NCBI RefSeq assembly: GCF_002020355.1
Contig: NZ_MPZV01000004.1
Span: 372,001 to 436,000, forward strand
DNA length: 64,000 nt
Origin: Thioclava sediminum
GTDB taxonomy: Bacteria > Pseudomonadota > Alphaproteobacteria > Rhodobacterales > Rhodobacteraceae
Direction of reading: 5' to 3'
The notes under the pieces are model-generated. The model ran no database searches and was not told the DNA's origin. It saw nothing but the letters and a program-made list of their open reading frames with translations. This document shows, in pieces, positions 51,850 to 62,144 of the stretch. The position numbers were made by a program, and so were the translations under genes. The number at the start of each line of letters is the position of its first letter. Positions within the stretch are counted from its first letter, which is position 1.

Positions 51850-53070
51850 ATGCGCGAACATTTCGACGAATTGGAAACCCGCAGCGCCGACGCGCGTGAG
51901 GCCTCTCTGGCGGAGTGCCTGCCGGCGCTGATTGACGCGGCGATGAAGGCTCCCGGGATCGCGGCGCATCTGCAAGGCGTAGACCCGAGCGCGATCACCT
52001 CGCGGGAGGCGCTCGCGAAGCTGCCGGTGCTGCGCAAGTCCGACCTCGGGGCCGCGCAGAAAGGCGCGCCGCCCTTCGGGGGGCTGGTCACGAAACCCGC
52101 CCATGCCTTCGCGCATATCTTCCAGTCGCCCGGTCCGATCTACGAGCCCGGCGATACCAGCCACAACTGGTGGCGGTTGGGGCGTTTCGTCCATGCCGCA
52201 GGCGTCGGTCCCGGCGATATCGTGCAGAACTGCTTCGGCTATCACCTCACCCCCGCGGGCATGATGTTCGAGAATGCCGCGCGCACGGTCGGTGCCGCCG
52301 TTCTGCCTGCGGGCACCGGCCAGACCGAATTGCAGGTCCGCGCCGCCGTCGATATCGGCACCACGACTTACGCGGGCACGCCCGATTACCTGCGCATCAT
52401 TCTCGAGAAGGCCGAGGAGATGGGCGAGGCGCTGAAAATCACGAAGGCCACCGTGTCGGGCGGTGCGCTCTTCCCGAGCCTGCGTCAGGATTATGCGGAT
52501 CGCGGCATCGCATGCCTGCAATGCTACGCCACCGCCGATCTGGGCAATATCGCCTATGAGAGTGCCGCGATGGAGGGGATGATCGTCGACGAGGGCGTGA
52601 TCGTCGAGATCGTCCGCCCCGGCACCGGCGATCCGGTTGCCCCCGGCGAGGTTGGAGAAGTCGTCGTGACCACGCTCAATCCCGACTACCCGCTGATCCG
52701 TTTCGCCACCGGCGATCTGTCGGCGGTGATGGAAGGCGTCAGCCCCTGCGGGCGCACCAATATGCGCATCAAGGGCTGGATGGGCCGCGCCGATCAAACC
52801 ACCAAGATCAAGGGCATGTTCGTCCGTCCTGAGCAGGTCGCCAGCTTCGTCTCGGCCCATGCAGAGGTGCAAAAGGCCCGTGTCATCGCCACCCGTGACG
52901 GCGAGATGGACGTGATGACCGTGCAGATCGAAACCGAGGCCGACGATCCCGCCCGCTTCGACGGTGGTATCCGCGAGGCGCTGAAGATGAAGGGCGTGAT
53001 CGAACTGGTGTCGCCCGGCTCTTTGCCCAATGATGGGAAGGTCATCGACGACCAGCGCAAATACGACTGA
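51850..53070 (+). CDS. Phenylacetate-CoA ligase family protein (PaaK-like)
   Basis: 406 residues. It is an AMP-forming ligase of the PaaK family: LPVLRKSDL, VSGGALFPSLR, YATADLGNIAYES and the C-terminal KIKGMFVRPEQV. The usual SSGTTGxP P-loop of the family is reduced here (FQSPGPIYEPG occupies that place), so the protein may be an altered ligase. It is the last transporter gene. Together with the acyl-CoA synthetase at 44247 it suggests CoA-activation of two acids or two steps. Confidence 0.85.
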   Translation: MREHFDELETRSADAREASLAECLPALIDAAMKAPGIAAHLQGVDPSAITSREALAKLPVLRKSDLGAAQKGAPPFGGLVTKPAHAFAHIFQSPGPIYEPGDTSHNWWRLGRFVHAAGVGPGDIVQNCFGYHLTPAGMMFENAARTVGAAVLPAGTGQTELQVRAAVDIGTTTYAGTPDYLRIILEKAEEMGEALKITKATVSGGALFPSLRQDYADRGIACLQCYATADLGNIAYESAAMEGMIVDEGVIVEIVRPGTGDPVAPGEVGEVVVTTLNPDYPLIRFATGDLSAVMEGVSPCGRTNMRIKGWMGRADQTTKIKGMFVRPEQVASFVSAHAEVQKARVIATRDGEMDVMTVQIETEADDPARFDGGIREALKMKGVIELVSPGSLPNDGKVIDDQRKYD

Positions 53071-53122
53071 GGAACCGCGCGCGCACTCAAGGGGTTTCTC
53101 CGGAAAGAGAGTGGAGGACCCC

Positions 53123-54772
53123 ATGCGTAAACTTCTTCTGACAGGTGCCGCGATCGCGGCGCTTGGCCTTCCCGCCCATGCCGCCGATCTGGCGCTGGTG
53201 CTGGGCAATTCCGATTATCAGCGGATCGACGATCTTCGCTCGGGCACCGCGCTGACCGATAGCGAAGCAAAGCTGCAGACGGCGGGCTTCTCGGTGCTGA
53301 TCGAGGATGATGCCGACGCCGCCGAAATCCGTTCCCGCTTCCGCGACTTCGTGACCCGTGCGCCCGAGGCCGAGCGGCTGGTTGTGGCGCTCTCGGGTCG
53401 TTTTGTCCATTCCGACGGCGAGACGTGGTATCTGCCGGTCGACGCCCGCGACACCTCGCTGCCCGAAGCGGTGAGCGAGGCGCTGCCGTTGTCGGCCGTG
53501 ATGACCGTGCTCGCAGCCCATCCGGGGCGTGCCGTGCTGCTGCTTGGGTCGGCGGACGATGAGGGCAACGGCCAGGGCCTGACCCAGCCTGGGATCGGGA
53601 CGCTCGACATTCCGCAGGGCGTGACCGTGCTGCGCGGCAGCCCTAAGGATGTGGCCAGCCTCATGTCGGGCAACCTGACCGAGCCCGGCGCTTCGCTGAT
53701 GCAGTCGGCGCAGTCCGAAGACCTGCGCGCGAGTGGCTACATGCCGCGGGATTTCGTACTTGTCACCGAGCCGACGGGCAAGAAGCCCACCCCGGTGAAA
53801 ACCCCCGAGGCTGACCCGTCGGCCCCGTATTGGGACATGGCGCGATCCGAGGACACGATCACCGCCTATCAGCTCTATCTCGACCGCTATCCGAATGGCA
53901 CCAATGCCGCTCAGGCGAAGCAGCGTATCCAGCAACTGCGTGACGAGCCTCAGCGGCAAGCGAAGGCTGCGGAAGAGGCGCTGAACCTCAGCCGCGATCA
54001 GCGTCGCGAGGTGCAGCAGAACCTGACGATCCTGAAATTCGACCCGAAAGGCGTCGATGGTATCTTCGGGCCCGGCTCGCGCGGGGCGATCGCGCGCTGG
54101 CAGAAGGCCAACGGCTTCGACGACACCAGCTATCTGACCCGCGCCCAGCTCACCGCGCTCTCGGCGCAGGGTGAGAAACGCGCCGCCGAACTTAAGGCCG
54201 AGGCCGAGGCCCGTCAGGCCAAGATCGATCAGCAGGACCGCGCCTATTGGGAGCAGACCGGCAAGGCGGGCGATGAGGCCGGGCTGCGCGCCTACCTCAA
54301 GAAATATCCCGATGGTCTGTTCGCGGAACTCGCGCAGGAGCGGCTCGACAAGATCGAAGCGGATCGCCGCGATGAAGCGCAGTCGGCCGATCGCGCCGAT
54401 TGGGACGTCGCACGCAAGGCCGACACCATCGCCAGCTACCGCGACTATCTGGCAAGTCGCTCCGACCCGGCCTTCAAAGCCGAGGCCGAGGCGCGCATCG
54501 CCGAGCTGCAGCAACAGAATCAGCAAAGCGACGCGATGGACGCGGCCGCCGCGAAAGAGGCCGCCCTCAACCTGCCCGGCGTTGCGAAATCGCTGGTGGA
54601 GCAACGCCTTGCCCAGATGGGCCTGAAGCCCGGCAAGGTCGACGGTGTGTTCGACAAGGATACCCGCCGCGCGATTCGCCGCTATCAGACCGCAGGCGGG
54701 CTGGAAGCCACCGGCTACCTCGATCAGGCCACCGTGGCGCAGCTTCTGGCCGGGGCGATCGGCGCGCGTTAA
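53123..54772 (+). CDS. Secreted caspase-like (degenerate) protein with two peptidoglycan-binding domains
   Basis: 549 residues from ATG 53123 with GGAGGA upstream; signal peptide 1-20. The caspase fold starts at LALVLGNSDY (23-32) and contains the LVVAL-SG (87-92) and TWYLPVDA (101-108) strands, but the usual catalytic His in SGHG is SGRF (91-94) and the Cys position reads VLLLGSADD (138-146). Three copies of a helical repeat with the pattern W-x-x-A...YLxxYP occur near 236-275, 385-425 and 435-480. PG_binding_1 domains are at about 290-345 and 495-548. It follows the PaaK-like gene by 52 bases. It may be a cell-wall-bound scaffold. Confidence 0.78.
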   Translation: MRKLLLTGAAIAALGLPAHAADLALVLGNSDYQRIDDLRSGTALTDSEAKLQTAGFSVLIEDDADAAEIRSRFRDFVTRAPEAERLVVALSGRFVHSDGETWYLPVDARDTSLPEAVSEALPLSAVMTVLAAHPGRAVLLLGSADDEGNGQGLTQPGIGTLDIPQGVTVLRGSPKDVASLMSGNLTEPGASLMQSAQSEDLRASGYMPRDFVLVTEPTGKKPTPVKTPEADPSAPYWDMARSEDTITAYQLYLDRYPNGTNAAQAKQRIQQLRDEPQRQAKAAEEALNLSRDQRREVQQNLTILKFDPKGVDGIFGPGSRGAIARWQKANGFDDTSYLTRAQLTALSAQGEKRAAELKAEAEARQAKIDQQDRAYWEQTGKAGDEAGLRAYLKKYPDGLFAELAQERLDKIEADRRDEAQSADRADWDVARKADTIASYRDYLASRSDPAFKAEAEARIAELQQQNQQSDAMDAAAAKEAALNLPGVAKSLVEQRLAQMGLKPGKVDGVFDKDTRRAIRRYQTAGGLEATGYLDQATVAQLLAGAIGAR

Positions 54773-54811: not shown

Positions 54812-54848
54812 AAAGGCCGCGCCGGGAAATCCCTGGCGCGGCCTTTAT
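54812..54848 (+). terminator. Bidirectional terminator between the caspase-like gene and rpmJ
   Basis: AAAGGCCGCGCC (54812-54823) pairs with GGCGCGGCCTTT (54834-54845), followed by ATTCG. It is 40 bases after the stop of the plus-strand gene and 20 bases beyond the rpmJ stop. Confidence 0.8.
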
Positions 54849-55074: not shown

Positions 55075-55149
55075 TGGTGGGCGGTACTGGGATCGAACCA
55101 GTGGCCACTACGATGTCAACGTAGTGCTCTACCGCTGAGCTAACCGCCC
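55075..55149 (-). tRNA. tRNA-Val (anticodon GAC)
   Basis: The minus strand gives a complete cloverleaf of 75 nt: acceptor GGGCGGT/ACCGCCC, D-arm with GCTC...GAGC, anticodon stem CTACG-TTGACAT-CGTAG with GAC anticodon, a T-arm CTGG-TTCGATC-CCAG, discriminator A and an encoded CCA. No intron. Confidence 0.95.
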
Positions 55150-61439: not shown

Positions 61440-61679
61440 TTACTGACCGTCGCCGCCTGTCGCCGGGCCGCTCGTCTTCGATTCGGGCGCCACGTCGACC
61501 TTCGCGGCATTCGGGTCGGACATCTGCTGCTCGCTCGGCGGATCGGTGGCGGCGTCGTCACCCCCGTCGATTGGCGTATCGGCAACGAGCCAGACCACGA
61601 CACCCAGTGCCGCGACCAGCGCAACCAGGGTGAGTATCAGGCCGCCGATACTGCTCTGTCGGTTCGAATCCTTGGCCAT
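61440..61679 (-). CDS. Single-helix membrane protein with acidic tail (twin 2)
   Basis: 79 residues from ATG 61679; a longer frame is rejected. A short basic/polar head (MAKDSNRQSSIGG) is followed by a transmembrane helix (LILTLVALVAALGVVVWLVA) and a disordered Asp/Pro-rich tail of about 40 residues. It resembles the next gene (61836-62144) in layout and in sequence of the head and helix. Likely periplasmic tail. Function unknown. Confidence 0.75.
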   Translation of the reverse strand: MAKDSNRQSSIGGLILTLVALVAALGVVVWLVADTPIDGGDDAATDPPSEQQMSDPNAAKVDVAPESKTSGPATGGDGQ

Positions 61680-61775
61680 TCTTGCTCGCCTCTTCGCTTT
61701 GATCCCTCGGTAAAGGAAACGCGAGGCTCTGACCTGCGTTCCTCCTCCCGTCATCAGATAGGCGGAGCATGGCGC

Positions 61776-61835: not shown

Positions 61836-62144
61836 TCAGTTCGAGCCGCCGCTTTGCGTGGTGGCCTCAGCCGACGCGCCGCTCGTGTCGGTGCTGCCGC
61901 TGTCGCTGGCCGCCGCATCGCCCGAGGCGTCGGCGCTGGACGAATCCGCCGGGGCTGCGTTGTCGTTGTTCTCGATCGTGACCGAGGTGGCGCTCGCGTC
62001 GCTTTCGGTGGGCGCAGTGCTGGCGCTCTCGTCCCCGGGCGACATCATGAGCCAAAGGACGATGCCTAGGGCGACGACGACCGCGCCCAGAACGAAGTAG
62101 ATGCCGCCCAGACCCGAGCGTTCGTGATTATGCGTGTCAGACAT
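61836..62144 (-). CDS. Single-helix membrane protein with long Ser/Ala/Asp tail (twin 1)
   Basis: 102 residues. The head MSDTHNHERSGLGG leads to a helix (IYFVLGAVVVALGIVLWLMM), and a low-complexity tail of Ser, Ala, Asp and Thr follows to the C-terminus. GGAGATCATC precedes the ATG. It has the layout of the neighbouring smaller protein at 61440-61679, so the two may be paralogues. Likely anchored with the tail in the periplasm. Function unknown. Confidence 0.75.
   Translation of the reverse strand: MSDTHNHERSGLGGIYFVLGAVVVALGIVLWLMMSPGDESASTAPTESDASATSVTIENNDNAAPADSSSADASGDAAASDSGSTDTSGASAEATTQSGGSN

Follow-up and report, generated by a model that had tools for sequence, protein, structure and literature searches.

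A lineage of caspase-like proteins without a catalytic dyad and with peptidoglycan-binding domains in the Rhodobacteraceae

The window, a stretch of 64,000 nucleotides from the genome of Thioclava sediminum, contains a gene for a caspase-like protein of 549 amino acids in which both residues of the catalytic dyad are replaced and which has no cysteine at all. The alignments of its relatives indicate that this loss is lineage-wide and no one-off decay. We regard the protein, with a probability of roughly one half, as an exported pseudo-orthocaspase that serves as a wall-bound scaffold or adaptor and plausibly derives from an active orthocaspase with a similar tail. The protein would be exported by the Sec route to the periplasm, where its two peptidoglycan-binding domains, judging by their domain family, may hold it on the peptidoglycan, and the pseudo-caspase domain would together with the helical repeats offer an interaction surface to an envelope partner. 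Proteolysis by an ancestral exported, active orthocaspase would have been lost and its docking kept. The features of the gene and its closest surroundings are given in Table 1.

Table 1. Features of the pseudo-caspase gene and its flanks, in positions of the window.
Feature	Position	Strand	Basis or remark
PaaK-like acyl-CoA ligase, last gene of liv-type ABC transporter cluster	51850..53070	+	upstream neighbour
GGAGG ribosome-binding-like site	53113..53117	+	sequence reading
Gene of the wall-binding pseudo-caspase (putative)	53123..54772	+	549 aa, stop included in coordinates
Sec-type signal peptide, residues 1-20	53123..53182	+	LPAHA then AD; cleavage site by eye
Pseudo-caspase domain, residues 21-227	53183..53803	+	Peptidase_C14 21.1 bits; model match to caspases
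Catalytic His position, Arg93 (SGRF)	53399..53401	+	alignments
Catalytic Cys position, Ala144 (LGSADD)	53552..53554	+	alignments
Turn P164-Q165-G166-V167, before next strand	53612..53623	+	each residue kept in ≥90% of the 81 sequences aligned
Helical (TPR-like) repeat 1, residues 235-275	53825..53947	+	structure models
PG_binding_1 domain 1, residues 286-347	53978..54163	+	Pfam; fold match
Helical (TPR-like) repeat 2, residues 370-412	54230..54358	+	structure model
Helical (TPR-like) repeat 3, residues 421-468	54383..54526	+	structure model
PG_binding_1 domain 2, residues 479-545	54557..54757	+	Pfam; fold match
Terminator-like hairpin behind the gene	54812..54846	+	scan: 1 found against 3.0 in shuffles, weak

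An earlier note on this DNA had proposed the open reading frame and a secreted-type product. The frame is supported by its ATG start, by the ribosome-binding-like site, which reads GGAGGA before the ATG in all eight Thioclava loci inspected (own copy included), and by full-length orthologues in 12 of 16 genomes of the genus, own genome included. The export signal and the two peptidoglycan-binding domains of that note were likewise recovered, by the signal-peptide reading and by Pfam respectively. The signal peptide of the window protein has no lipobox cysteine. Comparisons across orthologues were made with the best 80 of 406 confirmed ones, a choice that leans to close, full-length members; these share a hydrophobic N-terminus except for two N-terminally short sequences (L065 and L111). 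In one orthologue (L114) profile matches, those of the repeats included, followed the same order as the layout in Table 1. The closest named record among the matches listed was Thioclava sp. JE_KL1, with a protein 99% identical.

Where active caspases have SGHG the window protein has SGRF, with R93 in place of the catalytic His; the strand whose end is DAC in true caspases has LGSA here, with A144 at the Cys position. The earlier note had seen both changes and the missing dyad, which the alignments uphold, and to which the total lack of cysteine is now added. With neither dyad residue and zero cysteines, the protein cannot be a cysteine peptidase. Among 81 sequences (the window protein and the best 80 of 406 orthologues) the Cys position was never occupied by a cysteine (E in 26, D in 25, G in 11, A in 8, T in 4, others in the rest), and the His position held R in 43, H in 24, A in 6, Q in 5, S in 2 and L in 1. 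The flanking G92 was invariant, F94 was kept in 78 of the 81, and none of these 80 orthologues has a cysteine after residue 25. The same picture emerged from 23 distant members, where the Cys position held another residue in 21 and a gap in 2, the His position held R (n = 10), H (n = 6), Q (n = 4), W, S or T (n = 1 each), and a single sequence (L149) displayed one cysteine elsewhere in its caspase domain. Of 27 true caspase domains of these bacteria, picked by motif so that the catalytic Cys is present by construction, 25 have no other cysteine, and a cysteine-free pseudo-caspase is therefore less odd than it appears.

The true caspases used for comparison come from the same bacterial family and were selected with a narrow motif that 27 of 35 loci pass and 8 fail, some solely for GHA in place of GHG. 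Aligned with them, the window protein lacks ND after strand 1, DAC and DGxGxNSPFT. These segments we take to form the pocket and the active site. Part of this is also stated in the accessible text of PMC6426788. That the protein is nevertheless a peptidase, by way of a His/Cys or His/Ser pair in a shifted place such as H96 with a nearby Ser, is scarcely credible. H96 does lie three residues past the His position, and a shift of it into the active site had been suggested earlier. It is His in just 33 of the 81 sequences (Thr in 28), which makes shifted catalysis through it very unlikely, neither Ser, Thr nor Cys dominates at positions 143-147, and the absence of cysteine and of the three active-site segments speaks against any such pair.

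By sequence the caspase domain is marginal, with a Pfam Peptidase_C14 score just below the cut-off (21.1 against 21.4 bits), a score of 23.5 bits, just above it, in a six-frame search of the genome, and a match at E ≤0.01 in 51 of 79 aligned lineage members (the short L065 and L111 were left out of this alignment, A3, and of the 79-row close tree). A phmmer search of PDB sequences found 12 sequences up to E 10, all in the C-terminal part and none in the caspase domain. By predicted fold the domain is clear. The AlphaFold model made with the 79-row alignment reached a mean pLDDT of 89.9, mostly above 90 in the caspase-like domain, with a pTM of 0.45, so the relative placement of the domains is not fixed by the model. 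Foldseek and VIA both ranked caspases first, and caspase structures aligned to the model over residues 17-227. The best VIA match for predicted residues 19-227 was MALT1 (7ak1; Z 18.6, rmsd 3.0, 181 residues, 16% identity), followed by caspases 6, 7, 8 and 1 and a plant metacaspase (Z 14-16). The fold that the earlier note had recognised from the sequence was thus found again by the structure prediction and comparison it had called for, at a score far above chance.

The C-terminal 320 residues consist of the TPR-like repeats and two domains of PG_binding_1 fold. The two PG_binding_1 stretches of this C-terminal part (Pfam, E 9e-26) have counterparts in all 79 aligned lineage members, where PG_binding_1 was found without exception. 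Modelled alone, this part reached a pLDDT of 93.0 and a pTM of 0.54. Its first PG_binding_1 domain matched the fold of the peptidoglycan-binding parts of CtpB, SleC and SleB (Z 9-10, 9.9 for CtpB) and the second that of SltB3 (Z 10.3, 64 residues, rmsd 1.4). The three helical repeats read earlier from the sequence were reproduced by the models and by repeat profiles on the orthologue L114. Repeat 3 aligned with BamD (3qky; Z 7.1, 48 residues, rmsd 1.2), a Z that alone proves little, the BamD matches being weak ones to single hairpins with Z of about 7; the YfiO profile was present in 26 of the 79 lineage members and absent from the window protein at E 0.01. Searched in its entirety with Foldseek, the C-terminal part had no match at E ≤0.001. 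Eight PHROGs families were matched through it, six of them named endolysin and two without a function.

A search with alignment A3 found matches at E 1e-40 in 87 of 198 family genomes. Nearly the whole profile was spanned by 68 of these matches and 19 were partial. One partial match, in the genome G201, is without the caspase domain: the frame concerned (L156, G201:C19, ORF 1776-2810, + strand) has a signal-peptide-like start followed by the repeat and peptidoglycan-binding tail. In a class-wide draw of 289 genomes three matches appeared at E 1e-30, namely the own genome, one more of the same family and G397, the last being the tail of a true caspase (L169). Fourteen plasmid records matched, all of Paracoccus and none over more than 80% of the query; the 10 plasmid matches listed, P. 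denitrificans PD1222 included, are annotated only as peptidoglycan-binding. The PD1222 relative has 542 aa, zero Cys, one PG_binding_1 match and a Peptidase_C14 score of 19.4 bits. Convergent beside it lie genes for two exported-looking proteins without an assigned function, one annotated Sel1 (L177, 4790-7587, - strand); at the corresponding place P. methylovorus has a pair of hypothetical genes that are similarly long. PADLOC gave no match to a defence system, and among viral contigs the 37 pattern matches of a scan included no relative.

According to the accessible part of PMC6426788, pseudo-orthocaspases occur in orders that contain phototrophs, and a role in anoxygenic photosynthesis has been proposed for the alphaproteobacterial ones. 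Such a role is highly improbable for the lineage described here. Photo_RC is absent from the own genome, and among the 198 family genomes it was found in 37 of 87 with the lineage and in 46 of 111 without it (p 0.89), which speaks against a general link to photosynthesis.

The pseudo-caspase might also act on an active caspase of its own cell, as a decoy, an inhibitor or an allosteric partner. Both kinds were found together in 19 of 149 family genomes; in G138 a pseudo-caspase gene lies about 2 kb from a caspase gene that retains both His (AGHS) and Cys (DAC) (L176, G138:C22:35180-43531), and G151 carries, besides a pseudo gene (L160), a true caspase whose tail is similar (L131). Against this, the six-frame search of the own genome gave no other credible Peptidase_C14 match, and just 1 of 16 genomes of the genus has a true caspase. 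A second Peptidase_C14 match in the own genome (11.2 bits, in an 823-aa frame at G000:C2) was treated as chance, and CHAT (PF12770) scored 15.2 and 14.3 bits there, below its cut-off of 24. Over the 149 genomes, where Peptidase_C14 at E <1e-10 was counted as a true caspase by score alone and not by the dyad, there was no co-occurrence (19 with both, 39 with the pseudo form only, 40 with strong Peptidase_C14 only and 51 with neither; p 0.23). This partnership is improbable, with some room for pairing in the 19 genomes that have both kinds. Of the roles offered in the earlier note for an inactive caspase relative, sensor, decoy or scaffold, the decoy found no support in the search for an active paralogue, the results weigh neither for nor against a sensor, and the scaffold stands as the best remaining idea.

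In the tree, 46 pseudo domains were separated from 27 true caspase domains by a branch with 100/100 support, present in 200/200 bootstrap trees, on a long stem of 1.85. The pseudo rows comprised 24 of the 81 close sequences (the window protein and 23 of the 80) and 22 distant ones, with L170 left out; the true rows were chosen by profile and differ in part from the motif-picked set, the long rows L139, L137 and L031 were dropped, and all 27 retain His and Cys. In the tree of the 79 close rows, which have His in 23 and Arg in 42, four changes were counted for each of the two residues.

Five true orthocaspases were found to have a signal-peptide-like start and, behind the caspase domain, a TPR-like repeat and a peptidoglycan-binding domain. 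Four of them (L118, L128, L129 and L131) are from the same bacterial family, and L169, with 158.7 bits for Peptidase_C14 and 42.6 bits for PG_binding_1, is from another family of the class. Since active orthocaspases with a similar tail exist, descent of the pseudo-caspase from such an exported protein is plausible; the tree does not itself show such descent, the five sitting inside the true group and away from the pseudo group.

The lineage is under purifying selection. Among nine Thioclava copies, whose dS is near saturation (medians 1.0-1.5) so that the ratios are rough, the median dN/dS was 0.20 for the caspase domain (34 of 36 pairs usable), 0.16 for repeats 1 and 3 and 0.10-0.12 for the peptidoglycan-binding domains, with the lowest value, 0.055, at residues 348-415 around repeat 2 and 0.32 in the linker. 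Constraint is found everywhere and, the linker apart, is weakest in the caspase domain. The mean frequency of the majority residue was likewise lower there (0.46-0.48) than in the repeats and peptidoglycan-binding domains of the tail (0.54-0.70). These two gradients, and the existence of a tail without a caspase domain (L156), fit an alternative in which the repeat and peptidoglycan-binding module does the work and the pseudo-caspase domain is carried along while it slowly erodes. We hold this to be unlikely, though not to be dismissed: dN/dS in the domain is well below 1, the fold is confidently predicted, F94 and the turn P164-V167 are conserved, and the domain is present in the best 80 of 406 orthologues (chosen for close match, two of them N-terminally short) as well as in the 23 distant members.

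Caspase-domain columns conserved at the 90% level or above consist mainly of glycines, F94 and the turn P164-V167, and the strand end at 143-147 varies. From general knowledge of the caspase fold, the P-Q-G-V turn presumably sits at the far end of the sheet from the active site, and the constrained surface may therefore differ from the old pocket. A more specific form of the scaffold reading, possible though on balance doubtful, would be one ancient conversion of a wall-bound protease into a peptidoglycan-anchored, non-catalytic adaptor, whose conserved face would be the P-Q-G-V turn and not the old catalytic site. If true, this would give the caspase fold a function in the cell wall that is unrelated to proteolysis or cell death.

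The gene follows the transporter cluster by 52 bases, as the earlier note had it, the stop of the upstream gene falling at 53070, and the scan found no terminator-like site between the ligase and the pseudo-caspase gene. At least 36 of the 80 loci of orthologues (the best 80 of 406) have a PaaK-like ligase upstream in the same orientation, with a median gap of 47.5 bases, and in 34 it is the nearest called gene; neighbour gene calling was crude, L055 and L093, in which the transporter gene lies farther upstream, have space for a ligase that was not called, and two of the 80 loci hold less than 2 kb upstream. The link is found on either side of the close tree's midpoint root and is thus probably old, with many loci lacking it. 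An accessory periplasmic part of the preceding liv-type transporter and acyl-CoA ligase operon would account for the short gap, the missing terminator and the recurrence. It is nonetheless quite improbable, given that up to 44 of the 80 loci, under the same crude gene calling, are without the link and have several other neighbours and that the fold hints at no transport role. The link is read as synteny or co-transcription rather than function.

Downstream, the terminator-like hairpin is seen by eye in three of eight loci inspected, L007 and L010 besides the own copy (L003). A tRNA-Val (gac) gene at 55075-55149 (- strand) lies between the pseudo-caspase gene and a gene for N-formylglutamate amidohydrolase, which shows synteny in 44 of the 68 loci that reach 4 kb downstream; there is no functional reason for this link. 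In 18 of the 80 loci (best 80 of 406) a secreted gene of about 420 aa is convergent downstream (- strand; for example L047, L060, L064, L066 and L078), at 31-73 bases from the pseudo-caspase gene in 14 of the 18; the P. denitrificans locus has other genes in its place. The gene neighbourhood yielded no envelope partner. Elsewhere in the window two adjoining small open reading frames of 104 and 102 aa (61440-61754 and 61836-62144, - strand) have a similar layout, a hydrophobic helix and then an acidic low-complexity tail rich in Ala, Ser, Asp and Thr, and are by eye possibly paralogues.

Bacterial caspases have mostly been discussed as proteases tied to stress and cell death, and those pseudo-forms already in print mainly as cyanobacterial or rhizobial ones with a proposed link to photosynthesis. 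The accessible part of PMC6426788 counts 858 pseudo-orthocaspases among 9,994 bacterial orthocaspases; 582 alphaproteobacterial sequences are given there, 561 of Rhizobiales and 14 of Rhodobacterales, with YS, YA, FS, QC and HA listed as dyad substitutions in Rhizobiales. That survey used a p20 HMM against UniProt at E <1e-4, and with Peptidase_C14 at 21 bits the window protein is expected to have fallen below this threshold and to have been missed. The portion of PMC7889975 available reports greater tolerance of oxidative stress in a SyOC knock-out, and that of PMC3501461 a putative peptidoglycan-binding domain in 11 prokaryotic metacaspases (1.6%). A literature search, with most subscription journals outside its reach, found no work on this protein among the hits listed. 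The novelty lies in the lineage and its architecture, which have apparently been overlooked, pseudo-orthocaspases as a kind being already published. A large dead lineage with wall-binding domains, linked neither to photosynthesis genes nor to true caspases, forms with its active relatives of similar tail a clean pair for asking what role a non-cutting caspase fold has in the envelope.

Compared with known systems, the protein shares its fold with the MALT1 paracaspase and the animal caspases, from which it differs by an identity of 8-16% (in the rows listed), the lack of the dyad and a different tail. Both C-terminal domains have the fold of the peptidoglycan-binding domains of SltB3, CtpB, SleC and SleB, without the hydrolase or protease domains of these proteins (Pfam). 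The five tail-bearing orthocaspases have the order of parts in common with it, and whereas they keep GHG and DAC and have one repeat and one peptidoglycan-binding domain, the window protein has lost both motifs and has three repeats and two such domains. In kind it resembles the pseudo-orthocaspases, including SyOC, which in the accessible parts of PMC6426788 and PMC7889975 are likewise bacterial caspase-fold domains with one or both dyad residues replaced. From the forms described in the accessible part of PMC6426788 the present lineage is set apart by R, H, Q or A at the His position, a variable Cys position, the fusion to peptidoglycan-binding domains and its occurrence in the Rhodobacteraceae.
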